From IMG/VR virus record IMGVR_UViG_3300044998_000218, positions 1-29,465 of that record: DNA of 29,465 bases, one strand, 5' to 3'. Shown one piece after another: positions 3,909 through 22,434 of the stretch. This DNA comes from a virus. The notes beneath the pieces are model-generated. The model was not told where the DNA came from and ran no database searches. It worked only from the letters and a program-made list of their open reading frames with translations. The position numbers and the translations under genes were made by a program. Within the stretch, counting starts at the first letter, position 1; each line of letters begins with the position of its first letter.

Positions 3909-4948
3909 CAGGACCTCACCTCTCCCAGCTCGGCCAGCCGGTTGTAGAGGGCGTCCAGGGCTCCCTTTCGGGCCGCGAGGCCTCGACCCCGTCCCTGCTT
4001 CTCCGCCTCGACGAGCCGGCGGAGGTGGCCGACGTCGACGATCTCGGAGATCCTCGCGACGAGGAGCGGAACCGTCGTGTCGACGAACGCGAAGTCGGCG
4101 GAGGTCGGGAGTCGCCTCAAGAGCTTTTCCTCGCCGGGAAGCGCCGGCGGTTGCGGAGCTTGGTCGGGCATGTCGAACGGGTCGACGTCGTCGTAGTCGG
4201 TGGGCGCGTCGTCCGGTTGAGCGTAGGACTCCACCTCGTCGTCGAACGGGTCGACGTCGTCGGGCTCGGCGTCGGAGGTGAGGTTGGCGATCTCCTCTTC
4301 GAGCTTGCGGACCTCGGCGGCGGCGCGACGGAGGTCCTCAAGGGTCTCGCCGGTCTCGTGGTGGAGGAGCTCGACGACGGTGCCGGCGTCGTGCTGGTCG
4401 CCGGCGTGTGGGCGGGGGAAGCCGCGAGCGTACTCGTCGGGCCAGAGGGCTCGTTCTCCGTTGTCGTAGACCACGACGGCCGGCGTCTGGTCGTCGGCTC
4501 CGAGGAGAGCCACCGGATCCCCTCGACGCTCGGCGAGCTCCTGAGCGGTCAGGACGACCCCGTTCGCGTCGGTCCATCCCTCGTCGCCGAGCTCGGGGAT
4601 CGGCACGCGGCCGGCGGCGGCGTCTTTCGCTTGCCGGTACTGCGAGCGGAGGTGAGAGAGGAGACGGGCTCCGGGGTCTCGGTCGAGCTCGAAGAGGTCG
4701 ACAACCTTGTGGGACTCGACGTAGACCAGACCGTCGTCGGTGTCCTCGTGGCCGGCTTTCTTCACTCGGGTCTCGATCACGAGCACGACGCGGTCCCCGA
4801 TCCCATGAGGTCGGGTGACACGGTTTCCAGCACCGGAGAGAGCGGTTCGCATGGCGACGGGGTTCCGTCCGTGGTAGTCGGGAAGCTCGAGCGTCGGGAG
4901 TGCCGGCTGGTCCTCGACCTCCGTAGTCGGTTCGGTGTGCTCGGTCAC
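3908..4948 (-). CDS. Acidic protein of unknown function in the recombination operon
   Basis: I do not recognise a named domain. The 346-residue product starts at GTG 4948. That start overlaps the HTH gene stop as GTGA and has AAAGGA about six bases upstream; an in-frame start at 5044 would bury that junction. The N-terminal half (about 20-170) looks globular, with segments such as IGDRVVLVIETRVKKAGHE and DDGLVYVESHKV that suggest a beta-rich fold. A helical segment (about 205-245) follows, rich in Glu, Arg and Leu. Then comes a very acidic linker (about 245-285) with DDVDPFD written twice, then a helical C-terminus with a basic patch (KQGRGRGLAARKG). The acidic linker could be a docking tail, as in single-strand-binding partners. 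This is inference. Confidence 0.8.
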   Translation of the reverse strand: MTEHTEPTTEVEDQPALPTLELPDYHGRNPVAMRTALSGAGNRVTRPHGIGDRVVLVIETRVKKAGHEDTDDGLVYVESHKVVDLFELDRDPGARLLSHLRSQYRQAKDAAAGRVPIPELGDEGWTDANGVVLTAQELAERRGDPVALLGADDQTPAVVVYDNGERALWPDEYARGFPRPHAGDQHDAGTVVELLHHETGETLEDLRRAAAEVRKLEEEIANLTSDAEPDDVDPFDDEVESYAQPDDAPTDYDDVDPFDMPDQAPQPPALPGEEKLLRRLPTSADFAFVDTTVPLLVARISEIVDVGHLRRLVEAEKQGRGRGLAARKGALDALYNRLAELGEVRS

Positions 4949-5217
4949 TGGTCTGTCCTTTCGGGTTGTGTTCGGATCTCGTGTCGCGACATGGCCTCGG
5001 CGCGCTGCGGGGAGACTCCGAAGATCTCTCCGATCTCGCGCCACTTGAGCCGGGGTTGGCCGCTCCTGGCCTCGACGATCGCCGAGCGGCGCAGCATCAC
5101 GTACCGGTGCTCGATCTCGGTGACGTCGACGCGGGCCTCTGCGATACGGCGGAGCCGCTCGCGCGGGTCGGAGGTGCGCGCGAGGTCGGCGAGGAGCTGT
5201 TCGAGCGGGTCCGTCAT
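4945..5217 (-). CDS. Small helix-turn-helix DNA-binding protein
   Basis: The 90-residue product has an N-terminal helical part (about 1-50) followed by LKWREIGEIFGVSPQRAEAM (about 58-77). That reads as a helix-turn-helix of the sigma-region-4 or MerR-like kind: the first helix WREIGEIFG, the turn, then recognition helix PQRAEAMSR. It is the first gene of the leftward early operon, directly downstream of the candidate promoter and 17-bp dyad, so an autoregulator or early transcription regulator is plausible. Its stop overlaps the next GTG. It is too short and lacks the extra domains of a typical immunity repressor, so I do not call it one. Confidence 0.82.
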   Translation of the reverse strand: MTDPLEQLLADLARTSDPRERLRRIAEARVDVTEIEHRYVMLRRSAIVEARSGQPRLKWREIGEIFGVSPQRAEAMSRHEIRTQPERTDQ

Positions 5218-6263: not shown

Positions 6264-7430
6264 CTACCGGTGCAACGCCACGACGTCGACGACGAGGTGC
6301 GCCGGCGCAGCGACGAACACGCGGAACCGGCCGGCTCCGTCGAGCTGTACCGGCAGAGTGTTCGCTGCGGCCTGGCCGGCGGCGTAGTTGAGACAGGACA
6401 CGTTCGGTCGGGGACCGCCTGCCCACGCGGTGACGTAGCCGGCTGCTTCCGCTCCGGTGACGGTCACTGTCACGGTTGCGGCGACTGCGCCGGCGGCGTC
6501 GGGGACGGTGACAGTCAGGGGAGCGGCCGGCGTGACCTTGCCGTAGCGGTCCGCTCTCGTGTCCACAATCCGGGACTGAGAGACGAGCTCGAACCGGTCG
6601 GAGACCGGGGAGGCCGTCGGCGGGACGTACGGCGGTGCTGGCCGCGTCGGCAGCTCGGGGACCGGCGGGGGGGGTGGCGGTGTAGGGGGTGGCGGCGTCG
6701 GCGGGGCTGGCGCGAGCCGAGCGGCGACTACTGGCAGGATCGACGCGAAGAACACGGCGCGCAGACCGGGACCGATATCGGTGTGTGAGAGGCCGGACGT
6801 GCCGCCGAGCCGCCGAGCGGCCAGGTTCGCTTCGAGGTGGTCGACGATCCCTCGACGCGTCCCCTGCCGAGGGGGTTGGCCGTGTCGGCTTGCGCCTTCG
6901 GCGAACTCTTCCTCACTGAGCCACACCGGAGGGATTGAGTGCCGTCGGCACCAGTCGACAAGCAGATCGACGACGGCGGCGAGCTGCGCCGGCCGGGCGT
7001 TCCACTGTGCCGGGGTCCATCCGGCGCGTCCGACGATCTCGACGGAGAGCGTCTCGTCGTTCCAGCGGCCGGTGGTGTAGGGCCGGTCAGTCTCGGGGAC
7101 GGTGTAGCCGATCTCGCCGAGAGCTCCGACGTATGCCGTTGCGCTCACTTGGTCCGGTCTCCACGCGTCGTAGGTCATGGAGCTCGCGAACTGGCCGGCG
7201 GTCGGCTCCGGTGTGCCACTCTCGGTTGTGTGCAGCACGATCGCTCGGATGGTGCGGCCGTTCCGTCGGCCTCGGCCGTACTGGGCGGCGTGTCCCCGGT
7301 GTGTGTAGACGGACCCGGCTGGGATCGTGGGGATCGGCGCGTACTGTTCGGGGGCGGCGGAGCCGGTCGCTCGGACGTTCGCCGGGCGAGCTCGACGGGC
7401 CCACTCCGGAGGGTCGAAGGGTGTCGCCAT
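6264..7430 (-). CDS. Endolysin: N-acetylmuramoyl-L-alanine amidase with unusual C-terminal domain
   Basis: The 388-residue enzyme should cleave the amide bond between N-acetylmuramic acid and L-alanine. The Amidase_2 (PF01510) domain spans about residues 60-235. It contains AIVLHTTESGT (His67), SVEIVG (Glu131), GIVDHLEANL (His198) and SHTDIGPG (His216/Asp218), the probable zinc and catalytic residues. A Pro-rich linker (about 240-275) leads to a C-terminal domain (about 284-386) starting SRIVDTRADRYGK and ending VVDVVALH. That domain resembles repeats in actinobacterial secreted proteins and may bind the cell surface. It is not a standard LysM, SH3 or PG-binding module. No signal peptide is seen, so export would need the holin. 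The ribosome site before ATG 7430 is weak. Confidence 0.93.
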   Translation of the reverse strand: MATPFDPPEWARRARPANVRATGSAAPEQYAPIPTIPAGSVYTHRGHAAQYGRGRRNGRTIRAIVLHTTESGTPEPTAGQFASSMTYDAWRPDQVSATAYVGALGEIGYTVPETDRPYTTGRWNDETLSVEIVGRAGWTPAQWNARPAQLAAVVDLLVDWCRRHSIPPVWLSEEEFAEGASRHGQPPRQGTRRGIVDHLEANLAARRLGGTSGLSHTDIGPGLRAVFFASILPVVAARLAPAPPTPPPPTPPPPPPVPELPTRPAPPYVPPTASPVSDRFELVSQSRIVDTRADRYGKVTPAAPLTVTVPDAAGAVAATVTVTVTGAEAAGYVTAWAGGPRPNVSCLNYAAGQAAANTLPVQLDGAGRFRVFVAAPAHLVVDVVALHR

Positions 7431-7470
7431 GAGGGCCAGGGTACCCGGAGCTCGGCGGAGGGCCCGGGAC

Positions 7471-9687
7471 CTACTCGGGGGTGTCCCACGAGATCACGAC
7501 CTGGCCGTTCCCGGAACGAGCTCCGTCGGTCACGTTGAGGTCGTAGCCGGCGGGGTCGACCCATCCGGAACCGCCGCCTCCGTCGCCGGCGTAGGAACCT
7601 CCGCCGAAGAGGACCGGGGTCCCGGCTCCGCCGCCGCCGTAGTAGCCGCCGCCGCCGCCGCCGCCGGCGAAGTGGAACGAGTTAGAGGTCGTGCCGGCGT
7701 CGCCTCCCTGATTGAACGCGCCGGCCGTCCCGCCGGCTCCGGCCGCTCCTCCGGCGAACTGCGTCGCTCCGAGACCCGCTCGGGCGACCCCTTCGGTCTG
7801 CGCCGGCGAGAGACCCCAGCCGTCCGTGCCGGCGAAGAACCCGCCGGCTCCGCCTTGCGCGTCGGTCGCGTTCCTCGACGACCCGGTCCGGTTCGAGCCT
7901 CCGCCTCCTCCCGCGCAGAGGAGGGTAGACGCCATCCCGGACCCCTGCGGACGGACGTCAGACGAGCCTCCTCCCTGGCCTCCGGCGACGTTCCCGGGCG
8001 CGGTCGCCGGGGTGAGGCCTCCGTTCGGCCATCCCCCGACCCCGGTCGAGGAGGAGTTTCCGTAGTCTCCCTGGCCTCCGACGTACACGTCGAGGACGGT
8101 CCCGGGGACGACCTGGAACGTCGCGGTGGCCTCGGCTCCGTTCCCTCCCTTCGTTCCGCCTCCCTGAGCTCCTCGGGCGGTGATCGTGATCTCGGAGACG
8201 TTGTCGGGGACGGTGAAGGTCTGAACCGCGCCGGTGAACTCGAAGGTCTGGCTGTTGGGAGCCGTCGGGCTCTGCCGAACCGCTCCCTGGGCGAGGATCC
8301 ACCACGAGGCCTCACCGGCGTTGTCCTCGAGAATGTCGACCCCGGCCGTCGGCGACGGGCCTCCGTCGGCGATCGTGGTAACCCGGATCCGGTAGTCGGT
8401 CTGGCCGGAGAGCCCCTCCGCGGCCCACGAGAGCGTCGCTCGGATCTGCTGGCCGTCGGTGTAGGGGATCGAGAGATCTCGGAACACGACGAGCTCGGAG
8501 ACGGCCTCGTAGACCTCGACGAGCAACGATCCCGCGCCGACCCCGGTCGCGAAGAGGTCGAGGTGGTAGTTCGCTCGGCCTCCCTCGCGGAACTGTAGAG
8601 GGATCCGGGCGACGGTGTAGGTCCCGTCGTTGCGGACGGGGTAGGTCGTGCCGACGGGGCCGACGAACTGGAGCCACTCTTGCGAGCTCGAAGCTCGAGC
8701 GTTCCCGTCGCCGGAGAACATCGGGTCGGGGATGCCGGCTAGCTCGACCTCGTTTCGCCACGGTTGCAGCGGGTATCGCTTGAGCCGAACGACGGAGACG
8801 CGCAAGTCGGCGGCGAAGTCGGGGTCCGACACGCGCACCGTGTCTCCCACCTGCACGCGTCCCGACATGAACGACAGCTCGGAGAGGTCCACTACCTGTA
8901 GCTCGTAGGTGGCCGACCCACCCGACAGCCTGGCTAGCTGCTCCTGGGCGGCGGCGAGGAGCTGCGAGTCGACGAGGAACCGGCTATCGCTCCACACTGC
9001 GGACCTGGAGTAGCGGGCACGGGCCTGGGCCAGCGACAGACCTTGCGAGGTGTAGTAGGTGAAGTCCTCGATGTATTCGAGGCCTCCGTTCACACCGGCG
9101 ATGCTGAGACCGTCGGCACCGTAGGGATACAGGATTGTGAGCGCCGGCGGCGTGCGCCGGCGGCGAACCCCGGTCAGGTTCCGCCCATAGCGGAACGCCA
9201 GGGCGAGGTCTCGGCCGCGCCGGTCGGCGAGCGTCACTTCCTTCGTGGAGGTGTCCCAGCTCAAGGTCCGACCGGTCACACGCGCCCACGACCGGAGGAG
9301 ACCGAGAACCGTTGCGTCCTGCTGCTCGAGCGAGAACCTGTCGGAGCTGTCCGTGGTGCCGGGCCCGGTTGTCCATCCGGTGCCGGCAAGGATCTCGGCT
9401 AGGCCTTGTCGCGGGGTGAGGTCGTCGAGGACGGTGGAACCCACGCGGGTTACTTCGGCAAGCCGATACCACAGCGCGTTCGCTCGGACGGTGATTGTCG
9501 CTGTCGACCCGCGTCGGCCGGCTTCGAGCTCGACGACGTAGAACCGTCGGCCGTCCCAGCGGAGCTCACAATCCGGGTCGAGCAGGTAGCTCTTCGGGTG
9601 TCCTGCTGCGATCTCGAAGTAGAGCTCTTCGGACTGGTCGAGCCGCTCGTCGTGGTAGAGGTCGAGGAATCCGCCGGCGATGCTCAC
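7471..9687 (-). CDS. Tail tip protein with glycine-rich C-terminal domain
   Basis: The 738-residue virion protein has a prophage-tail/Gp37-like N-terminal part (about 1-330), of the kind that forms the baseplate hub or tail tip. It carries segments such as FEIAAGHPKSYLLDPDCELRW and SWDTSTKEVTLADRRG. A beta-rich middle (about 340-475) follows. The C-terminus (about 480-738) starts FEFTGAVQTFTVPDNVSEI and runs into dense Gly stretches (GGGGGGGYYGGGGAG near 674-688). This resembles the glycine-rich ALK/LTK-type domain and can form polyglycine-II helix bundles used in receptor binding. Its GTG start overlaps the preceding stop as GTGA; an ATG-type start at 9729 was rejected. It likely carries host-recognition surfaces. 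Confidence 0.82.
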   Translation of the reverse strand: MSIAGGFLDLYHDERLDQSEELYFEIAAGHPKSYLLDPDCELRWDGRRFYVVELEAGRRGSTATITVRANALWYRLAEVTRVGSTVLDDLTPRQGLAEILAGTGWTTGPGTTDSSDRFSLEQQDATVLGLLRSWARVTGRTLSWDTSTKEVTLADRRGRDLALAFRYGRNLTGVRRRRTPPALTILYPYGADGLSIAGVNGGLEYIEDFTYYTSQGLSLAQARARYSRSAVWSDSRFLVDSQLLAAAQEQLARLSGGSATYELQVVDLSELSFMSGRVQVGDTVRVSDPDFAADLRVSVVRLKRYPLQPWRNEVELAGIPDPMFSGDGNARASSSQEWLQFVGPVGTTYPVRNDGTYTVARIPLQFREGGRANYHLDLFATGVGAGSLLVEVYEAVSELVVFRDLSIPYTDGQQIRATLSWAAEGLSGQTDYRIRVTTIADGGPSPTAGVDILEDNAGEASWWILAQGAVRQSPTAPNSQTFEFTGAVQTFTVPDNVSEITITARGAQGGGTKGGNGAEATATFQVVPGTVLDVYVGGQGDYGNSSSTGVGGWPNGGLTPATAPGNVAGGQGGGSSDVRPQGSGMASTLLCAGGGGGSNRTGSSRNATDAQGGAGGFFAGTDGWGLSPAQTEGVARAGLGATQFAGGAAGAGGTAGAFNQGGDAGTTSNSFHFAGGGGGGGYYGGGGAGTPVLFGGGSYAGDGGGGSGWVDPAGYDLNVTDGARSGNGQVVISWDTPE

Positions 9688-10622
9688 GAGATCACCCCGC
9701 GTTGGGTGCCGTCGAGGCCGTAGACCCACACGTACTCGCGTCGTGGCGGGTACCGGCGGGACACACGCGAGAGGCCGTGCGCGGTGATGGTGCCGGCCGA
9801 GGACAAGTTGGCGGAGAGTTGCGTTTTGGGGTTGCTGATTGTGACGTCGACGGAGAGGGTGCCGGCCGAGGACAAGTCGGCGGCAACTGAGGTGACCGGG
9901 ACCGCGTAGCGGATGATGACGATGCCGGAACCGCCAGCCGCGGGACCGGGACGAGCCTCCCCACCTTTCCCGCTGTTTGCAGGACTAGCCGTTGGACTCC
10001 CTGTGTTGTCCGACCCTAGGCCACCTTGACAGCGTTCGACGCCATCCATGCAGATGACGCCTGCGCCACCAGCACCACGCACCCCAGGCGCACCGTTGCC
10101 GCCAGCCCCGCCAGCGCCACCGCCACCGCCACCGCGCCGGTTAGCGACGATCGCGCTGTCGTAAGCAGCTCCACCGGCATGTCCCTGCCCGGAGGTTCCC
10201 GCACCGCCCGCGCCGCCACCGGAGACTGCGCCGCTTCCACCGCCACCACCTGAGCCGCCGCTTCTGCCGTTTCGCTGTCCGCTGTTAGCGGAGCCGCCAC
10301 CGCCACCACCAGTCGCGACAAGCAGCGACCCGATACTGGACGCGCCTCCGTCCGAACCCCGAGCGTGACTGCCCGGAGCGCCTGCGCCGCCAGCGCCGAC
10401 GGTGATGGTCTGGTCGCTTGTGATCGTCAGGGCTGCCGAGTACCGGTATCCGCCCGCACCACCCCCGCCGCCGACCGAGCCACCACCAGCTCCACCACCA
10501 CCGGCGATGACCTCCGCCTCGACGTCTCCACCATCGACCACAATCAGGGTGCCGTTACTGGTGAAAATGTGCGTGCGGAAACCGCCCGATTCCGTGACGG
10601 ATCCGCCGGTGAAGTAGGGCAC
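9684..10622 (-). CDS. Glycine-rich minor tail protein
   Basis: The 312-residue product begins GTG 10622 with GGAG eight bases upstream. After a short beta segment (FRTHIFTSNGTLIVVDGG), residues about 35-225 are extremely Gly-rich with Ala and Ser. The domain ends GGSGIVIIRY, the typical ending of phage glycine-rich tail domains. The C-terminal part holds a 23-residue tandem repeat built on LSSAGT, encoded by two 26-base near-identical repeats at 9789-9814 and 9858-9883. It ends in a basic, Tyr/Trp-containing tail (YVWVYGLDGTQRG). It is likely a fibre or tip-attached adhesin partner of the next gene, which has its own Gly-rich end. Confidence 0.78.
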   Translation of the reverse strand: MPYFTGGSVTESGGFRTHIFTSNGTLIVVDGGDVEAEVIAGGGGAGGGSVGGGGGAGGYRYSAALTITSDQTITVGAGGAGAPGSHARGSDGGASSIGSLLVATGGGGGGSANSGQRNGRSGGSGGGGGSGAVSGGGAGGAGTSGQGHAGGAAYDSAIVANRRGGGGGGAGGAGGNGAPGVRGAGGAGVICMDGVERCQGGLGSDNTGSPTASPANSGKGGEARPGPAAGGSGIVIIRYAVPVTSVAADLSSAGTLSVDVTISNPKTQLSANLSSAGTITAHGLSRVSRRYPPRREYVWVYGLDGTQRGVIS

Positions 10623-14839: not shown

Positions 14840-15450
14840 TCATCGTGCGAAGAACCGCCGAACCTCGTCCGGCGTGGAGTACCGCGGTTTCGGCCGGGGT
14901 GTGGGCCGAGGGTAGCGGAGCGGCTTCGGTAGCCGGCTGGGGCGGCGCTGCTTGTCGGTGTGGATGAACTCGGTCAGGTTGTAGAGGGCGTCGAGCCGTT
15001 CGAGGATGAGCGCCAGGATCTCGTCGGAGTGCGTCCATCGGAACCGATGAGCGCGCACCAGCTCGGCGAACAGTTCGCCGGGGAGCTCGGCGACGGAGCT
15101 CGGGTCTACTCCGAGGTCGGCGGAGAGACGGGCGACGGTGCGCTCGACTCCGCCTCCGTAGGGTCCTCGTCATCTTCGGGTCCCTCCTCGGCGAGCTGGA
15201 AGTTCTCGACGGTGCGTAGCCACGCGTTGAACGGGTGATTCGGGTCCTCGAAGTCCCGGCTCTCGTTCTTCGGTCGCGGGCCGACGAGCTCGATCCACGT
15301 CGCGTAGAGCAACGCCTCGGGGTCGCCGGCCTTGAGGGCTTCGATGCCGGGGATCCCGTCGTAGCTTCTGCGCTTGGCGGCGATCTGTGAGAACGCTCCG
15401 AGCTTGACGGTATGCGTCTCCCCGGCGATCGTGACGGCGAGCCGGCTCAC
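14840..15450 (-). CDS. Tail assembly chaperone GT fusion, made by -1 frameshift
   Basis: Reading the first chaperone frame and then slipping back one base joins it to a second frame ending at 14840. This gives about 203 residues. The downstream frame is open from about 15169 and reads as a T domain: ADLGVDPSSVAELPGE, then HRFRWTHSDEILALILERLD. Earlier than 15170 that frame is closed by TGA at 15172-15170, so the slip must lie between 15169 and the G stop at 15108-15106. The frame offset is exactly -1, as in lambda G/GT and nearly all siphovirus chaperones. Independent start at GTG 15058 would lose coding sequence that looks genuine. The fusion coats the tape measure protein during tail assembly. 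Confidence 0.85.
15106..15450 (-). CDS. Tail assembly chaperone G
   Basis: This 114-residue product starts at GTG 15450, overlapping the major tail protein stop as GTGA. It has a beta-like start (SRLAVTIAGETHTVKLGAFS), a helical middle (IEALKAGDPEALLYATWIELV), and an acidic Pro/Ser-rich end after about residue 95 (EGPEDDEDPTEAE). Position between major tail protein and tape measure, and the -1 related frame downstream, identify it as the abundant member of the chaperone pair. Confidence 0.85.
   Translation of the reverse strand: MSRLAVTIAGETHTVKLGAFSQIAAKRRSYDGIPGIEALKAGDPEALLYATWIELVGPRPKNESRDFEDPNHPFNAWLRTVENFQLAEEGPEDDEDPTEAESSAPSPVSPPTSE
15160..15166 (-). promoter_or_regulatory. Candidate -1 slippery site GGACCCT
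   Basis: In the zero frame this reads G GAC CCT, which can re-pair as GGA CCC. It lies four bases after the last stop in the -1 frame and 50 bases before the G stop. The proline codon slips cleanly, but the Asp codon re-pairs imperfectly, so this is the best candidate rather than a textbook heptamer. Confidence 0.35.
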
Positions 15451-16016
15451 GAGCCGATCGGCGCGAACGCCGCGTCGTCGGAGTCGTAGCGCCACGGCTT
15501 GCCGTTGTCGGCGTCGTCGAGAACCTCGAGCGTGAGCGGGAGGAGACCGGGTCCGCTCTTGGCGAAGGTGCTCTCGACGTCGTTCGTGACGAACGTCCGG
15601 CCGGCGCAGAACCGGAAGCTGCGGAGGCCGTCGGTCATGTCGAGGACCACGGCTCGCACGTTCACTTCGTCGGGCTCCGGGGGTTCGTAGCGGTACTCGC
15701 CGGGCTGCGGTTCGGTGATTGCTCCGCCGCCGTACGCGACCAGGAGGTTCTCAGCGTTCCATTGCATGAGGGTGAGCTCGAGTGTCCCCGTGCGGCCGTC
15801 GAGGTACTTGCGGACCGGGTAGAACGCCTGCCATGCCCGGACCTCCTGCACACTCTTCGAGTCGGTGAACTTCGCTCCATCTTCGGTGATGAAACCGTGC
15901 TCGACGAACGCGGGGTCGAGAGCATCGGAGAGGTACTGCGGGAGCGGCGTACCCTCCGGAGCGGTCCACAGGGTGCCGGTTCCGGCGATCAGGATCTCGG
16001 CGGGGTTGTTGGGCAT
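15447..16016 (-). CDS. Major tail protein
   Basis: The 189-residue product is the likely tail tube subunit, sitting between the tail terminator gene and the tail assembly chaperones. Typical features are the N-terminal AEILIAGTGTLWTAPEG, the pattern RTGTLELTLMQWNAENLLVAYG near residues 75-96, and a C-terminal beta segment ending FAPIGS. Two ATGs nine bases apart are possible. At 16025 a GGAGG would touch the start codon with no spacer, whereas 16016 leaves nine bases, so I chose 16016. A strong hairpin lies upstream in the leader. Confidence 0.85.
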   Translation of the reverse strand: MPNNPAEILIAGTGTLWTAPEGTPLPQYLSDALDPAFVEHGFITEDGAKFTDSKSVQEVRAWQAFYPVRKYLDGRTGTLELTLMQWNAENLLVAYGGGAITEPQPGEYRYEPPEPDEVNVRAVVLDMTDGLRSFRFCAGRTFVTNDVESTFAKSGPGLLPLTLEVLDDADNGKPWRYDSDDAAFAPIGS

Positions 16017-16025
16017 GAGGGGCAT

Positions 16026-17173: not shown

Positions 17174-17791
17174 TCACAGGCTCCCGGCGGTGATCGTGCC
17201 GGCGGTCGTCGAGAACCTCCGACGGAGCATTTTCGCCTCGGAGTCGGTGAGGTGCGAGCCGCCGGCGTCGAGCGTGTTGCGGTAGCTCACGGAGTACGGG
17301 CCGAGAGTCTCTTGCGAGATCCCTCCGCCGGGGTTGCCGATTACTCGAGCGGCGACCCGGAGGGCGAGGCTTTTCACACTCAGAGGGACGTTCTCGGCGG
17401 TGTATCCGTAGCTGTAGGTGACGGTGACGGTCGACGCCGGGCCTCCCCAATGTGCGCCACCGGCGGCGTCAAGCGGGCCGGAACGAATCAGGCTCCGTTC
17501 GTTCCACTGGTAGAGGCCGGTGGCGAGCTCGTAGCCGTTCAGCGCGACGCCGGTAACATCCACCACTGGCCGACGTGGCAGGAGGAGGTCCCGGGACCAT
17601 GTGCCGGCGAGCTTCGCGGTCTCGGTGCCGGCGATGATCCGATTCCGAGCTGCGGTCTGCATGTCGGCGGAGACGAGCTCCAGGAGGAGCTCGGCCTGTG
17701 CGATCCACTCGTCGTCGACGCCGGGCGATGGTGCGAGCGTTTCGCCGGTGAGGAAGGTTCGGAGCTCTTGCGGTGTGGCGAACGAGGTCAT
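17174..17791 (-). CDS. Head-tail connector (adaptor) protein
   Basis: The 205-residue product begins with a helical part, TPQELRTFLTGETL and DEWIAQAELLLELVSADMQTA. RPVVDVTGVALNGYEL and STVTVTYSYGYTAENVPLSVKS follow. Those segments, ending with helices ALRVAARVIG and a C-terminal tail, match the SPP1 gp15/HK97 gp6-like adaptor family that attaches to the portal. ATG 17791 overlaps the last glycosyltransferase stop as ATGA. The glycosyltransferase cassette thus interrupts the usual capsid-to-connector order. Confidence 0.82.
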   Translation of the reverse strand: MTSFATPQELRTFLTGETLAPSPGVDDEWIAQAELLLELVSADMQTAARNRIIAGTETAKLAGTWSRDLLLPRRPVVDVTGVALNGYELATGLYQWNERSLIRSGPLDAAGGAHWGGPASTVTVTYSYGYTAENVPLSVKSLALRVAARVIGNPGGGISQETLGPYSVSYRNTLDAGGSHLTDSEAKMLRRRFSTTAGTITAGSL

Positions 17792-18684
17792 CGTCTGCGC
17801 TCCTCTCGGATGATCTTGTGCCGGCGGAGCGCCTCCACCTCGTCGGGGTCCGAGGTTTCGTAGATCCCGTCGTGGAACCGGATCACGAGGTCGGAGCCGA
17901 AGAGCCGGAGCGTCCGTCGGTTCGCTGTCATCCGGAACCGTACCGGTTTTGCAAGCTTGGGCAGAGGTTTCCACTCTGCGCCGGCGACTACTGCGGCCAT
18001 GCGTCGGGGGTAGCCTCGGGCATTGCGGTAGCGGGCGACGAGCTCTTCGGATGCTGGGGAGCCTCGAAGGGTTGGGGCGGGGTGCGGGTGCCAGAGGTGG
18101 CAGAGACGGCCGGCGAGCCGGTGGCCGGGGCCGGCGAGCGTCTCGAGCGCCCATCCGAACGCGACGTCCTCGCCTCCCCATCCGAGAAACCGGCGATCGA
18201 TTCCGCCCACGAGCTCGAACGCGTCGGCGGAGACGACGGTGATCCCTCCGCCGGCCGGTCCGACGTACGGGGTCCGGGCGACGACGGCCATACGGGGTCG
18301 GCGGGTCGGGTCGGAGTAGAGCCGCTCCGTTTCCCGGTCTCGGAGCCGGTAGACAGCCCGGTGGGGGATGGTCCACGGGTACCGGCCGGAGCTCACCAGC
18401 TCGACGGCCTCGGACAGGACCCGGGGGTCGGTGATGAACGAGTCGGCGTCGGCGACCACCAGGACGTCGACGGGTCCGAGCCGCTCAAGGCCGTTAGCGA
18501 CGGCCGCTCCCTTCGACCACTCCTCGGCCTCTTCGATCTCGCCGAGGACCACCGGGAGCTCGGGGTGCTTGTCGGCGTACCATTTGAGGACGAACGAGAG
18601 GGCCCGGGCGCGCCACTCGTCGCCGGCGCGGGTCGGGACCACGACGCCGACGGAACGGGCGCGTTTCCGGTTTTTCGCGGTCAT
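17788..18684 (-). CDS. Glycosyltransferase, galactosyltransferase-like GT-A fold
   Basis: The 298-residue product starts with a basic stretch, then the beta strand SVGVVVPTRAG. DVLVVADADSF (DAD about 79-81) is the metal/nucleotide-sugar motif. Further on, GGGITVVSADAFELVGG and FLGWGGEDVAFGWAL (about 145-180) match the GT7-like C-terminal motif with acceptor and catalytic residues. The family transfers a sugar from a nucleotide donor. No membrane segment is seen, so it would act in the cytoplasm on phage or host molecules. ATG 18684 overlaps the upstream stop as ATGA. It is the last enzyme of the five-gene cassette; a virion protein acceptor is inferred from location. Confidence 0.85.
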   Translation of the reverse strand: MTAKNRKRARSVGVVVPTRAGDEWRARALSFVLKWYADKHPELPVVLGEIEEAEEWSKGAAVANGLERLGPVDVLVVADADSFITDPRVLSEAVELVSSGRYPWTIPHRAVYRLRDRETERLYSDPTRRPRMAVVARTPYVGPAGGGITVVSADAFELVGGIDRRFLGWGGEDVAFGWALETLAGPGHRLAGRLCHLWHPHPAPTLRGSPASEELVARYRNARGYPRRMAAVVAGAEWKPLPKLAKPVRFRMTANRRTLRLFGSDLVIRFHDGIYETSDPDEVEALRRHKIIREERRR

Positions 18685-19514
18685 CTGAGGACCCCCGGGG
18701 GAGGGTCGTAGAGGAGGGCGGGCTGTCGTTCTCCCTCGATCGTGACCGGCTTGCCAGGGTCGGCGCGCCAGTACCACCGGCGGAAGATCTCCTCAAGGGC
18801 CTCGGGGCCGTGCTGGTCGAGGAGGTCTCCCCACTGTCGCCAGTGTGCCCCGTGGTCCGGGGCCTGCCGGTCGCCGGCGGCGCGGTACGCGGCGGAACCG
18901 TTGCGGACCTTCCGGACGAACTGTTCGAGGGACCGGTAGGGGTAGTGCCGAACGACGAGGACCGGGTCGAACGGGGCCGGCGTGAACTCCTCGTAGTGGG
19001 CTCCGTGATTCCCCTGCTCGATCACGAGGTCGGGTCGATAGCGGACGGCAACCTTCGGGAGCGGAGCCGGCGACCGCCTCCGCCATCCGATCCGGCGGAC
19101 AGGGTCCTCTTCGTCGGGGTCGAGGCCGGTCGAGACGTGGTCGTAGAGCTCGGCGGGTACAAGATGCCACCGGGCGGGGACCGGCTCGAGGACGTCTGCG
19201 AGCCGGTCGGCGTGCGGGGTGTACCACCACTCGTCGGCGTCGAACGGGACGATCCATGTTGCGCCGAACTCTTCGGCGGCGCGATGGGCGAGGGCTGTCA
19301 TCTTCCGACTCTGAACGTAAGCGGGGTCGTCGTCGTCGACGACCACGAGCCGGGCCCGGTGTTCGGCTCGGAGCTCCTCGAGGACTTCTCGGGTTGCGTC
19401 GACGGAGAGGTTGTCGGCGACGACCACTGCGTCGACCTCGTCGAGCATGTGCCGAACCGTCGAGCCGATCACGTCCGCCTCGTCCCGGACCATTGCCACG
19501 GCGACGACGGTCAT
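18681..19514 (-). CDS. Glycosyltransferase family 2-like protein
   Basis: The 277-residue product opens TVVAVAMVRDEADVIGSTVRHMLDEV, the classic start of GT2 proteins in which the MVRDE segment binds the nucleotide. DNLSVDATREVLEEL follows, then the DxD-type motif VPFDADEWW (about 89-97). The C-terminal half is rich in His, Trp and Arg and includes NHGAHYEEF, HYPYRSLEQFVRKVRNG and HWRQWG. It resembles PF13704 glycosyltransferases. It starts at the TGATG overlap with the preceding gene. Donor and acceptor cannot be told. Confidence 0.85.
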   Translation of the reverse strand: MTVVAVAMVRDEADVIGSTVRHMLDEVDAVVVADNLSVDATREVLEELRAEHRARLVVVDDDDPAYVQSRKMTALAHRAAEEFGATWIVPFDADEWWYTPHADRLADVLEPVPARWHLVPAELYDHVSTGLDPDEEDPVRRIGWRRRSPAPLPKVAVRYRPDLVIEQGNHGAHYEEFTPAPFDPVLVVRHYPYRSLEQFVRKVRNGSAAYRAAGDRQAPDHGAHWRQWGDLLDQHGPEALEEIFRRWYWRADPGKPVTIEGERQPALLYDPPPGVLR

Positions 19515-20185
19515 CAGTAGCCGGTCCCGACGCGATGGTGGCCGATGTGCTCGACCCATTCCCCGGAGTCGCGCGCTCCCCAATAGCCGAACCGGAGCCG
19601 GTCGTCGACGAGGAGCTGGTGAGAGAACACTCCCTCTGACCGGGCTCCGTCGGGCCACTCGTGGTCGAGGACGAGGGCCATCCGGTACAGACTCGGGTTG
19701 GTCGTGAAGAACAGACGGTGTTCGAGCCAGGCCCGGCCGCGGCCGTCGGTCTGCTCGACGTAGGCGTCCGGATGTTGCTCGACGATCCCGCCGGCGGCGC
19801 GCTCTGCGTCGTTCCAGGGTTGCCGCCGGAGGGCGAGCTGCACGAGCTCGGGGTTAGCGAGGAGAACGGCCATCATGTCGACGAGCTCGACTCGCCGGCG
19901 GAACACGAAGTCGTCTTCGAGGTGGAACACGAACCGCGCGGAGGAGTGCTCGCGGAGGTGGGCCCACGCCGACCGGATCGCTCCGCCGAACCCACTCCGG
20001 CCGGCCGGTGGGCCGATCACTTTCCCGCCGAACCGGGCGAGCCATCGCCGGTACTCCGGGTCGCCAGAGTCGTCGTGGATCCAGATCTCCGAGACCGGGC
20101 CGAAGAGCTGGGCGAGCGCCGACGGGACGGTCCTCTCGATACAGTCTCGCCGGCCGTCGGTCATCACGAGAAGAGCGATCGTCAT
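19514..20185 (-). CDS. Glycosyltransferase with EDD motif
   Basis: The 223-residue product opens TIALLVMTDGRRDCIERTVPS, a nucleotide-sugar binding start. IWIHDDSGDPEYRRWLA follows, then FVFHLEDDFVF (EDD about 90-92), the metal-binding site in place of a usual DxD. GRAWLEHRLFFTTNPSLYR and VFSHQLLVDDRLRFGYWG complete a single GT-A domain. ATG 20185 overlaps the previous stop as ATGA. A long open frame upstream belongs to the shadow of the neighbour. It is probably cytoplasmic, with the other cassette members. Confidence 0.82.
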   Translation of the reverse strand: MTIALLVMTDGRRDCIERTVPSALAQLFGPVSEIWIHDDSGDPEYRRWLARFGGKVIGPPAGRSGFGGAIRSAWAHLREHSSARFVFHLEDDFVFRRRVELVDMMAVLLANPELVQLALRRQPWNDAERAAGGIVEQHPDAYVEQTDGRGRAWLEHRLFFTTNPSLYRMALVLDHEWPDGARSEGVFSHQLLVDDRLRFGYWGARDSGEWVEHIGHHRVGTGY

Positions 20186-20799
20186 CGGAGTGTCCTTCCC
20201 TGTCTGCGGAACCATGCGGCGTGTCTGCGGAGAATCTCGGAGCGAAGGCCGACCGGGTTCCGGACCGTCGCGTTCCGGCCCGAGCGGTTGACGTGGACCC
20301 GGTAGACAGCGTCGGGAACGTGGACCACGGGCTCGCCGAGGAGCCAGGCTCGCCGGAAGAGGGACCAGTCCTCCCACGCGCGCTCGGACCAAAAGCCGCC
20401 GGCGCGCTCGAACGTGTCCCGACGGATGAGCGTTCCCACAACGCACGGGTTCCATCCGCGGTCGATGTTGCGGCGATCGTCGTCGAGGGTGCGCGCGGGG
20501 CCCGGGATGCCGTCGACGACCTCGCGGACTGCCGGAGCGAGGAGGCCGCGGTTCATTCGGAGGGCTCGCATCGCTCGAAGGTAGCCGGGTTCGAGCTCGT
20601 CGTCGGCGTCGAGGAAGCAGAGCCACGGGGCGGCGGTCATCGCGGCCGCTGTGTTCCGGGCCTCGGCCACCGAGCTCCCTCCGTGGAACACGACGAGGTC
20701 GGCCGGCTCCTCCCTCTCGGCGGAGGTTTTCGCTCGACGATGGGCGAGCTCTGCCCATCGGAGCTCGCCGAACGTCGCGACGATCACCGCGACGTCCAT
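20182..20799 (-). CDS. Glycosyltransferase family 2
   Basis: The 205-residue product opens MDVAVIVATFGELRWAELA and carries SSVAEARNTAAAMTAAPWLCF, then the signature FLDADDELEPGYL (DADDE about 64-68). CVVGTLIRRDTFERAGGF and AWEDWSLFRRAWLLGEPV follow, with the W-E-D acceptor/catalytic motif. This is a clear, minimal GT2 domain. The start at ATG 20799 overlaps the upstream gene by 16 bases. A GTG at 20787 would make a tidier GTGA but would remove the first strand. Confidence 0.87.
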   Translation of the reverse strand: MDVAVIVATFGELRWAELAHRRAKTSAEREEPADLVVFHGGSSVAEARNTAAAMTAAPWLCFLDADDELEPGYLRAMRALRMNRGLLAPAVREVVDGIPGPARTLDDDRRNIDRGWNPCVVGTLIRRDTFERAGGFWSERAWEDWSLFRRAWLLGEPVVHVPDAVYRVHVNRSGRNATVRNPVGLRSEILRRHAAWFRRQGRTLR

Positions 20800-21461
20800 A
20801 GCCTCCGCCGGCGGGCGAACAGGGCGCGGCCGTGACTCATGCGTCGGCGCTGCTGCTGGTAGAGCTCGTCGGTCGGGGCTTTTCCCCACGACGGGTGGAG
20901 GTGCTCGACGACGGAGTGCTCGGCGAACGCGAACGCGCCACGAGCTCGGGCTGTGGCGATCAGCTCGTCGTCGACGTACTCGTGCCAGTAGCCGGGGTGG
21001 AGAACGAGGCCTCGCCGGTCGATCGTGCCGCACTCGTCGACGTAGGTTCGCCGGACAAGCGAGTGCGTCGCGTGCTGTCCGGTCCTGGCGCGTTCGGTCG
21101 GCGCGAGGTCCTGGGTTCCGACGACTCCGATCCTGTCGTCGGCGAAGAGGGCGAGGCCGGCGGAGAGCCATCCGGGGTGGAACCGGAGGTCGTCGGCTCC
21201 GAGGAAGAGGAACGGCTCTGACGTTGCGGCGTACCCGGCGTTGATCTTCCGGGCGTAGTCACCTCGGGGAGTTGGCGGCACCGTGAGGTATTCTGCGCCG
21301 GCCTCTTCGATAGCGGCGATCTCGTCCCAGTCGCCGGCGGTGGCGATGAACAGGAGCCGGTGAGGCTCCGGGGTGTTCTCGGCGACTGAGCGGACGAGCG
21401 GGCCGACGTTCCTCGGCCGGCGGAGAACCGGGACGAGGAGAACGGTCGGCCCGCTCGTCAT
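20784..21461 (-). CDS. Glycosyltransferase-like protein, first of the cassette
   Basis: The 225-residue product opens TVLLVPVLRRPRNVGPLVRSV and carries HRLLFIATAGDWDE. YARKINAGYAATSEPFLFLGADD follows (motif GADDLRF about 88-94), then GWLSAGLALFADDRIGVVG. The C-terminal half has HPGYWHEYVDDEL and HLHPSWGKAPTDELYQQQ, typical of phage GT2-like proteins. It begins only four bases after the major capsid stop, without an obvious Shine-Dalgarno, so translation likely follows from the capsid gene. The capsid gene being its neighbour suggests it may act on a head protein. Confidence 0.83.
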   Translation of the reverse strand: MTSGPTVLLVPVLRRPRNVGPLVRSVAENTPEPHRLLFIATAGDWDEIAAIEEAGAEYLTVPPTPRGDYARKINAGYAATSEPFLFLGADDLRFHPGWLSAGLALFADDRIGVVGTQDLAPTERARTGQHATHSLVRRTYVDECGTIDRRGLVLHPGYWHEYVDDELIATARARGAFAFAEHSVVEHLHPSWGKAPTDELYQQQRRRMSHGRALFARRRRLWTSR

Positions 21462-21465
21462 GCGC

Positions 21466-22434
21466 TCAGGACGCGTTGGCGGGCTCGAGCACGGCGAACG
21501 GGTAGCGCGTCTCGTCGTCCTCGTTCACGCGGTTCACGGGGTTCGGGAGCGCCCAGCCGAGCCGGAACACACACCGGAGCGCCGTGGAGTCCTGCTGCAT
21601 GAGGTTGAGCAGGACGTTCCCGTCGGCGTCGGTGAGGACCCCGTCAGTGTGGACGCTGTAGGTAATGTCCTTGCGGATCGCGTAGACGAGCTGCGACCAG
21701 TCGCCGGAGATCAGGAGGCTTCGGGTCGGGTCGATCGCGCCGTTCTTCGGGAACTGCACGGGCTCCCCGTCGAGCTCGTAGGTCGAGCGACCTCCCTCGG
21801 TTGCCTGCCGGCCGGCGCGGAACACGGGCTGGCCGTCCTGGTCGCGGAGGCCGCGCATCTTGGCACGCATGGAGAGCGACGCGATGTGGCCGGAGACCAT
21901 GTAGCCGTCCTCCTCGACGAAGGACAGGATCCCGCCTTCGCCGAGAATGTCGTCGTACAGGTCCCCGTTGGTGCCCAGCTCGAGGACGTGGCCGGCCTGC
22001 TCGGCGACCTCCACCACGCCTTCGGGCCAGAGGGCCGGCGCGTTGATCCCGTAGAGGATCGCCTGGTCGACGGCGAGGCCGAACGCCTCGACGATGCCGG
22101 GCCGCATCTCGGACCACAAGTCGTAGTCGACGTCGTCCAGGACGTTGTCCGGGATCACGACGATCACGGCGAGCTCCTCGGCGTTCACGTAGACGTTCCG
22201 CCACCGGGCGTCGGTCGTCTGCTTGAGGCCGGTGTCCCCGTCGACGAAGTACGCGTGTGGGAGGGAGCTCCACACCGGGAGCCGGCGCTGGTTGCGAGCC
22301 ATGTCCGGGAGTCGCCGGGCGAGGGAGAGGACCGAGGACTGCTCGGCGGCGCTACCGAGGATCTCTCGGGAAGCTTCCTCGGGGATGAGGGGGCTCGCGT
22401 CGCCGCGGTCCACAATGTCGGAGTAGGTGGGCAT
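21466..22434 (-). CDS. Major capsid protein (HK97 fold)
   Basis: The 322-residue product is the shell subunit. The start DIVDRGDASPLIPEEASREIL and then SVLSLARRLPDM and RLPVWSSLPHAYFV are a typical opening of HK97-type capsid proteins (N-arm, then E-loop beginning). SEMRPGIVEAFGLAVDQAILYG is the spine-helix region. DPTRSLLISGDWSQLVYAIRKDI and TALRCVFRLGWALPNPV form the A-domain and P-domain ending. It follows the scaffold gene and has the strongest Shine-Dalgarno of the window. No protease gene is visible nearby, and no residue pattern for covalent cross-linking can be judged. Confidence 0.93.
   Translation of the reverse strand: MPTYSDIVDRGDASPLIPEEASREILGSAAEQSSVLSLARRLPDMARNQRRLPVWSSLPHAYFVDGDTGLKQTTDARWRNVYVNAEELAVIVVIPDNVLDDVDYDLWSEMRPGIVEAFGLAVDQAILYGINAPALWPEGVVEVAEQAGHVLELGTNGDLYDDILGEGGILSFVEEDGYMVSGHIASLSMRAKMRGLRDQDGQPVFRAGRQATEGGRSTYELDGEPVQFPKNGAIDPTRSLLISGDWSQLVYAIRKDITYSVHTDGVLTDADGNVLLNLMQQDSTALRCVFRLGWALPNPVNRVNEDDETRYPFAVLEPANAS

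Follow-up and report, generated by a model that had tools for sequence, protein, structure and literature searches.

The viral record IMGVR_UViG_3300044998_000218 of IMG/VR (positions 1 to 29,465; this whole stretch of 29,465 nucleotides is referred to below as the window) encodes five consecutive glycosyltransferases, GT1 to GT5, which we interpret, with a probability of roughly 0.7, as a transferable virion-glycosylation module predicted to build a multi-sugar O-glycan on the C-terminal serine of both the major capsid protein (MCP) and the tail-tube protein (TTP). We directly observe the enzymes, the conservation of their order and position, and their association with a C-terminal serine on both of these proteins. 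The relevant features of the window are:

20784..21461, minus strand: GT1, GT-A glycosyltransferase, 225 aa (PF00535 2e-4, phrog_14945 5e-6, model)
20182..20799, minus strand: GT2, GT2-family glycosyltransferase (DADDE), 205 aa (PF00535 6e-6)
19514..20185, minus strand: GT3, phage 'galactosyl transferase' family (EDD), 223 aa (phrog_3047 6.5e-20)
18681..19514, minus strand: GT4, PF13704 glycosyltransferase (DADEWW), 277 aa (PF13704 7.6e-11)
17788..18684, minus strand: GT5, galactosyltransferase-like (DAD, GWGGED), 298 aa (PF02709 1.6e-6, phrog_1721 2e-16)
21466..22434, minus strand: MCP, HK97 fold, proposed glycan acceptor ending in ...PANAS (PF05065 2.7e-25)
21469..21471, minus strand: codon of the MCP C-terminal serine, inferred O-glycosylation site
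15447..16025, minus strand: TTP, proposed second glycan acceptor ending in ...APIGS (PF25681 2.1e-29)
15450..15452, minus strand: codon of the TTP C-terminal serine, inferred O-glycosylation site
17174..17791, minus strand: head-tail adaptor Ad1, bordering the cassette on its downstream side and outside the proposed function (phrog_442 6.9e-19)

The segment from 17788 to 21461 holds five complete ATG-started ORFs on the minus strand, overlapping one another by 16, 4, 1 and 4 bp in order from GT1 to GT5, with GT5 overlapping the next gene downstream by a further 4 bp. The upstream neighbor is the MCP, which is also matched by phrog_10 (8.6e-41), and the downstream neighbor is the head-tail adaptor. 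The ORFs and profile matches thus confirm the first-pass annotation, which had claimed five GT-A-type genes in one overlapping run from the MCP to the head-tail connector. Its further statement that no nucleotide-sugar synthesis, polymerase or membrane-bound transferase genes accompany them also holds, as none of these, nor any flippase, was seen among the window genes that were scanned.

Profile searches yielded glycosyltransferase-family matches for all five ORFs, with the caveat that the PF00535 match of GT1 falls below the cut-off. Each contains a DXD-type metal motif, and the distinct motifs read earlier from the translations were all located in their respective proteins: GADD at residue 88 of GT1, DADDE at 64 of GT2, EDD at 90 of GT3, DADEWW at 92 of GT4, and DAD at 79 together with GWGGED at 168 of GT5. 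No membrane segment is present in the sequences of GT1-GT5. Structure prediction, which had been proposed for every enzyme, returned GT-A folds for GT1 and GT5 (mean pLDDT 92 and 93 respectively), which compare with known GT-A structures at TM-scores of ~0.6-0.7 for GT1 and only ~0.5 for GT5; the assignment of GT2-GT4 was made from sequence alone, without a model. A PDB profile search links GT2 to 9jma, a glucosyltransferase of bacterial origin (2e-5), and the nearest solved structures to GT4 are GmaR (1.6e-8) and SunS (0.013). GmaR is a flagellin glycosyltransferase and SunS a peptide S-glycosyltransferase, both acting on proteins or peptides; however, the GT4 match to them is limited to the GT-A core and does not reveal the acceptor specificity. 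GT1 is both the most conserved and the most cassette-specific member. GT1-GT5 are soluble GT-A-like glycosyltransferases.

A synteny search, as suggested at the outset, recovered the GT1-2-3-4-5 order from 70 loci of uncultured phages, representing 39 distinct cassettes, and the retention of this order excludes chance as the origin of the run. The view that such genes do not belong at this site has to be given up, since the position beside the MCP is conserved across a large set of uncultured phages. One cassette-bearing locus (L076) is a prophage of Parafrankia soli. The cassette loci adjoin head genes of differing families, including major head proteins of phrog_10, 267, 283, 544 and 617, adaptors and the portal. 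The median identity of GT1 is 0.54 within one MCP family and 0.50 between two unrelated ones; these nearly equal values imply that the module is not restricted to a single type of head. IMG/VR contains at least 224 GT1 loci, whereas no GT1 homolog was found among 50,697 isolate phage records, which is why the cassette has been overlooked. A search of isolate phages with the cassette DNA gave one short match only, and actinomycete genomes yielded a full-length GT1-type match in just 2 of 395, the remaining matches being weak and only partial, within the GT core. In many relatives a SAM methyltransferase gene is inserted between GT3 and GT4, and in one (L132) an NDP-sugar epimerase lies inside the cassette. 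Most of the relatives' contigs are fragments. A shared non-glycosyltransferase protein was considered as a common acceptor, and gene clustering of 55 cassette loci, in which GT1 is present by selection, recovered none as widespread (portal in 32 and TerL in 22 at most); hence there is no universal partner protein.

The two proposed acceptors are distinguished by their C-termini. In the discovery set, within which the pattern was first spotted by eye, the MCP ends in serine in 26/26 phages with GT3 and GT4 as against 22/89 cassette-less homologs (Fisher 6e-13), and the TTP does so in 21/21 with the cassette as against 10/34 without it (8e-8). The ending in cassette phages is mostly of the form -[G/A]S-COOH, and both AGC and TCN codons are used for the serine. 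The association persists in clusters at 70% identity (16/16 versus 6/38, 4e-9); at 50% identity the MCP clusters are too few for a test. Other protein families in these phages seldom show this feature (portal 1/32, VG15 1/30, TerL 0/22), and across all genes of cassette phages the background is 15.7%. In held-out loci, fetched later via GT4 and GT2, serine ends the MCP in 11/16 and the TTP in 9/10 (p ~0.001 each); the MCP rate of 69% is below that of the discovery set, and the serine is thus strongly enriched rather than universal. Two loci (L138, L141) that keep GT1, GT2 and GT5 and lack GT3 and GT4 also lack the MCP serine. Exceptions that have GT3 and/or GT4 are L391/L394 (MCP ...ITA, TTP ending in Ser), L399/L404 (MCP ...ALA, TTP ...GTI) and L392, whose MCP assignment is weak; L361/L425 have a C-terminal threonine instead.

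Cassette-less loci display a related pattern, in that the C-termini of MCP and TTP co-vary (12/17 versus 1/22) and most of the serine-tagged loci contain another type of transferase at the same site, a class that was defined post hoc, after inspection of the tagged loci. In untagged controls there was no transferase among 33 large genes scanned, the scan covering only genes of at least 225 aa that lie either between the MCP and TTP genes or within the first 4.5 kb. Six serine-ending MCPs without any transferase (L288, L296, L303, L305, L322, L323; mostly -TVS, -VLS or -SPS) look like background. HK97 has the serine on both proteins (...SSGS, ...LTIS) and no matching glycosyltransferase, so the tag does not suffice by itself.

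Glycosylation of phage particles has been described in a few mycobacteriophages, including Che8, Corndog and Myrna (Freeman et al. 2023, Cell Host Microbe, via PMC12363180, PMC12619734 and PMC10877033); Che8 is reported there to bear glycans at the C-termini of its capsid and tail-tube proteins (PMC12619734, citing Freeman 2023), and its gp110 to be an essential glycosyltransferase (PMC12363180). Glycosylation of this type calls for glycosyltransferase genes and for a hydroxyl residue at both C-termini, and the window has five intact ORFs in a structural operon, their expression being inferred, and serine at the end of both MCP and TTP. Both systems have phage-encoded glycosyltransferases, with capsid and tail tube as reported targets in Che8 and as proposed ones here, and the Che8 proteins likewise end in ...GS (capsid ...KTGS, tail tube ...SDGS). 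Among eight isolates chosen for a gp110-type enzyme, 7 have the serine on the MCP and all 8 on the tail protein. Che8 gp109 is related to GT5 (69 bits), and gp108 is a GT2-type enzyme fused to a methyltransferase (22 bits with GT2); however, gp110 lacks a clear counterpart in the window, its match to GT3 reaching only 11 bits. Moreover, the glycosyltransferase genes of Che8 number three and lie at the extreme right of its genome, in contrast to the five that adjoin the MCP here; GT1 has no isolate homolog, and the five-gene cassette spans uncultured phages with unrelated heads. The best reading is that the glycan would be placed as in Che8 but built by more enzymes, most of them different from those of Che8.

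Several alternatives have to be weighed against this interpretation. The virion protein might be glycosylated elsewhere, with the serine tied to, for example, head or tail assembly, as those few cassette phages that lack an MCP tag and the tagged HK97 without a glycosyltransferase would allow; we regard this as unlikely, given that the cassette-linked serine occurs on two differently folded proteins and not on further structural proteins from these phages, that the same tag accompanies different transferase types, and that Che8 provides a precedent at exactly these C-termini (PMC12619734). The first-pass annotation had itself offered modification of DNA or of host wall polymers, and both fare worse: partner genes for DNA modification are nearly always absent, and GT1-GT5 lack a membrane segment. 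Action on the host surface (wall polysaccharide or a teichoic-type polymer), for instance to block superinfection, is very improbable: five glycosyltransferases would suit a cell-surface oligosaccharide, as would the epimerase of L132, but the cassette has no lipid-carrier transferase, flippase or polymerase, and neither the structural operon position nor the MCP and TTP C-termini would be explained. Serotype conversion of the Gtr type is similarly unsupported, with no flippase or membrane-bound bactoprenol transferase among the window genes scanned. Glycosylation of a modified base in the phage DNA can be given hardly any weight. Phage enzymes that glycosylate modified DNA bases have been described (Pyle 2024, cited by PMC12619734), and in one relative (L145, on a contig of 103 kb) a TET/JBP gene lies ~8 kb away from the cassette; yet a companion gene for a hydroxylated base is otherwise wanting, with a thymidylate-synthase-type gene in 0/18 viral records and TET/JBP in 1/~67, many of them fragmentary, and the window-related records of 37-40 kb contain neither. 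This proposal, too, leaves the head-operon position and the link to the C-termini unaccounted for.

The original suggestion, a chain of several sugars attached to a virion protein, remains the best-supported reading, with the C-terminal serines of MCP and TTP as likely acceptors; this rests on sequence evidence, and no glycan has been observed. In the proposed mechanism, the soluble GT-A enzymes would draw on host nucleotide sugars in the cytoplasm and assemble an O-linked multi-sugar chain at the terminal serine of MCP and TTP, the two most abundant virion proteins, before or during assembly, such that head and tail would be coated in sugar. The chain might be started by GT4, the nearest to the protein-acting GmaR and SunS, or by GT3, and extended by the remaining enzymes, while the methyltransferase of many relatives would methylate it. 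That serine is the acceptor and that all five enzymes act on one chain is inferred, no glycan having been measured in this phage group. As a guess, the coat may shield virions in soil from being bound or from aggregating, or it may alter contact with the host surface.

More tentatively, and at somewhat less than even odds, a C-terminal [G/A/S]-Ser on the capsid and tail-tube proteins could be a general exchangeable anchor for coating tailed-phage virions, into which unrelated modules plug. Such modules, using this one site beside the MCP, would comprise the five-gene cassette as well as GT-B enzymes, Stealth-type phosphosugar transferases, and glycerophosphotransferases of the CDP-glycerol type accompanied by a methyltransferase; if so, some phage particles would bear polymers of a teichoic-acid-like or phosphosugar kind in place of ordinary glycans. 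The presence of the cassette in dozens of otherwise different viruses, along with the serine patterns, suggests that sugar-coated phages are perhaps far commoner than currently thought. Serine at both the MCP and TTP ends is of help in predicting which phages bear a coat of their own making and at which point it is attached. The frequency of virion glycosylation and the polymer types involved become testable questions, which matter for how phages are recognized by the immune system, for their persistence in soil and for enzymes that tag protein C-termini.

Comparable gene blocks occur in two other phages. Mycobacteriophage Wildflower, which we provisionally take to be Corndog-like (cluster O) from the size of its genome and the placement of its glycosyltransferases, has an O-methyltransferase and three glycosyltransferases within the head operon, one of them matching the GT5 profile, and its MCP and tail protein end in ...VGS and ...GDS; however, the block lies between the portal and the capsid protease instead of after the MCP, and the three enzymes are not colinear with GT1-5. 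In Caudovirales GX15bay (MK557849) the cluster lies upstream of the terminase and GT1 and GT5 were not found, but it contains consecutive homologs of GT2, GT3 and GT4 (41, 45 and 43% identity), accompanied by extra glycosyltransferases and a methyltransferase.

The 29,465-base IMG/VR virus record carries on its minus strand a structural block of siphovirus type, in which the first-pass annotation had placed an overlapping run of five glycosyltransferase genes (GT1-GT5, the cassette) between the genes for the major capsid protein (MCP) and the head-tail connector. The ORFs, all complete and ATG-started, and a glycosyltransferase-family match for every one of them bear this out:

Upstream neighbour: major capsid protein (PF05065, 2.7e-25)
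Inside 17788-21461, minus strand: GT1 (225 aa), GT2 (205 aa), GT3 (223 aa), GT4 (277 aa), GT5 (298 aa)
Downstream neighbour: head-tail adaptor (phrog_442, 6.9e-19)

Adjacent cassette genes share 1-16 bp, and the last of them, GT5, runs 4 bp into the gene that follows. The metal motifs named earlier are present in all five enzymes, and no membrane segment was found in any of them. Structure prediction, which had been proposed as a check, was run for GT1 and GT5 and gave confident models with GT-A folds: GT1 best matched the mannosyltransferase PcManGT and SpsA, both GT-A enzymes, and GT5 a beta-1,4-galactosyltransferase and a polypeptide GalNAc-transferase, with TM-scores of only ~0.5. As no nucleotide-sugar genes were seen in the window, these precursors must be supplied by the host, which the GC content of ~68% and a Parafrankia prophage suggest, by inference, to be an actinomycetote; host range is not settled. 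Elsewhere in the window, two adjacent tail genes (7471-9729 and 9684-10622), whose reading frames overlap by 46 bp, encode the glycine-rich domains PF12810 and PF21722 and are possibly adhesive tail-tip parts.

With GT1, GT3, GT4 and the capsid protein as queries, searches of viral contigs recovered the order GT1-GT2-GT3-GT4-GT5 in 70 loci, representing 39 distinct cassettes, so that the synteny search advised by the first-pass annotation found the cassette to recur unchanged in order. Relatives of GT1 number at least 224 in viral contigs and five in genome contigs (the best from Parafrankia soli), with none among 50,697 isolate phage records and a full-length match in only 2 of 395 actinomycete genomes; GT1 therefore represents a phage and prophage family rather than a common host gene. 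GT1 is preceded by one or two head genes, which come from many different families, and GT5 is followed by genes of the neck or tail. The isolates nearest to the window MCP, Arthrobacter Eileen, Acutalibacter Fontainebleau and Rhodococcus ReT1v-2, have no glycosyltransferase at the MCP-adjacent position, which is occupied by ordinary adaptors. Median GT1 identity is 0.54 inside a single capsid family and about as high, 0.50, across two unrelated families, and pairwise identities of the five enzymes correlate (r 0.39-0.62). These sequence data fit a module that is retained or transferred as the heads around it change; in which direction it moves is inferred.

The MCPs adjoining cassettes belong to unrelated capsid families and terminate in serine, mostly as Gly-Ser or Ala-Ser, as do 15 of 17 tail-tube proteins (TTPs) of the same phages, one exception being truncated by the contig end; the window proteins end in ...PANAS (MCP) and ...APIGS (TTP). 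In these phages a serine end occurs in 1/32 portal, 1/30 VG15 and 0/22 terminase proteins and is lacking in the scaffold; the background over all genes is 15.7%. Both codon classes, AGC and TCN, are used for this terminal serine (the tag). In a case-control comparison, with homologous capsid proteins retrieved irrespective of the cassette, the MCP ended in serine in 26/26 loci with GT3 and GT4 versus 22/89 without any cassette (p 6e-13), and the TTP in 21/21 versus 10/34 (p 8e-8). After clustering of MCPs at 70% identity the figures were 16/16 versus 6/38 (p 4e-9); at 50% MCP clusters were too few to test, and the TTP contrast persisted (11/11 versus 2/9). Held-out loci, which GT4 and GT2 searches subsequently retrieved from previously unused contigs, had the tag on 11/16 MCPs and 9/10 TTPs (p ~0.001 each versus cassette-less homologues), the exceptional MCPs ending in Ala (L391/L394 and L399/L404), Thr (L361/L425) or Cys (L392, a weak MCP assignment).

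In mycobacteriophages, phage-encoded enzymes are already known to glycosylate the capsid and tail-tube proteins at their C-termini: published papers place the glycans at these termini (PMC12619734) and state that capsid glycosylation requires gp110 in Che8 and gp38 in Corndog (PMC12363180). The two Che8 proteins end in ...KTGS and ...SDGS. Among isolates picked for a Che8-gp110-type enzyme (Che8, Marvin, Neville, Wildflower, Sbash, Jabbawokkie, mEp390 and phiAsp2; Sbash proteins identified by position), serine ends the capsid protein in 7/8 and the major tail protein in 8/8, mEp390 counting for little as its capsid ending is that of HK97. Glycosyltransferase-less TM4, D29, Giles, Bxb1 and ReT1v-2 have serine on neither protein, and Eileen on the tail protein only. 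HK97 (L343) is a true counter-example to the association: its capsid precursor (4028-5185, ...SSGS) and tail subunit (6733-7437, ...LTIS) are both tagged and no matching enzyme was found, reflecting either coincidence or an unrecognised enzyme.

In cassette-less loci capsid and TTP serines co-occur (12/17 versus 1/22, p 2e-5). There are other TRANSFERASES at the same site, 12 tagged, cassette-less loci having a different transferase between capsid and TTP genes:

L179:4093-6368 and L332:6707-8907, glycerophosphotransferase-like PF04464, each with a methyltransferase
L241:10257-11174 and L248:6430-7800, glycerophosphotransferase-like PF04464
L262:7675-8397 and L286:4043-4732, Stealth-type phosphosugar transferase (PF11380, below the Pfam cut-off)
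L261, L265, L267, L268, L275 and L289, GT-B enzymes

The PF04464 phages have Gly-Ser capsid ends and a teichoic-acid-like virion coating is possible in them; L262 and L286 are tagged on both capsid and tail tube. No other transferase was found in tagged, cassette-less L222, L227 and L312, and untagged controls had none among 33 large genes of this interval. One shared C-terminal anchor with exchangeable enzymes would yield such data, which remain a correlation. As far as could be checked without the original Freeman 2023 text, the following are new: the cassette of five enzymes in its conserved position, its occurrence with unrelated heads across uncultured phages, the predictive use of a C-terminal serine, which the case-control comparison supports, and the other polymer transferases at this site. 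Ten cassette-less relatives of the window MCP (L009, L197, L217, L231, L236, L244, L224, L226, L238 and L255) end mostly in -LTA, -LSA or -MTA and have a gene of ~290-318 aa directly 3' of the capsid gene, without a Pfam match in the first six, which were scanned singly.

That the cassette modifies phage DNA is most improbable, a thymidylate-synthase-type gene being absent from 18 viral records and TET/JBP present in one (L145) of ~67. Action on the host wall is also highly unlikely, since a lipid-carrier or membrane component is absent from the cassette and the tagged virion proteins would be left without a reason. Glycosylation of a virion protein at another site remains open, mainly on account of the exceptions to the serine tag.

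Under the favoured reading, a multi-sugar O-glycan on the C-terminal serines of MCP and TTP, GT4 would initiate the chain, because its profile is nearest, among PDB entries, to the flagellin glycosyltransferase GmaR (1.6e-8) and the peptide glycosyltransferase SunS (0.013). L138 and L141 lack GT3, GT4 and the capsid serine, L138 also the TTP serine, a pattern which also points to GT3 or GT4 as initiator. GT1 and GT2 may extend the chain; GT5, which is similar to galactosyltransferases, has a relative in Che8, gp109 (69 bits). The roles assigned to GT1, GT2, GT3/GT4 and GT5 are all weak inferences. L138, L141 and L080, with reduced cassettes (GT1+GT2+GT5 or GT1+GT5) and no C-terminal serine on capsid or tail tube, are natural variants that could show which enzyme depends on the tag.

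Many relatives have a ~200 aa SAM-dependent methyltransferase (PF13489) gene between GT3 and GT4, and one large relative also encodes an NDP-sugar epimerase/dehydratase; together with the glycosyltransferases these are the components of a pathway that builds and methylates an oligosaccharide. The mangrove-soil phage GX15bay has consecutive GT2-GT3-GT4 homologues with further glycosyltransferases and a methyltransferase, in a block upstream of the terminase, unlike the MCP-adjacent cassette of the window. A separate group of short viral contigs (L046-L065) has GT3 and GT4 homologues ~600 bp apart and no full cassette. In L145, a 103-kb phage contig, the TET/JBP dioxygenase gene, 684-1592 (contig 71270-71734), lies ~8 kb upstream of an enlarged cassette.
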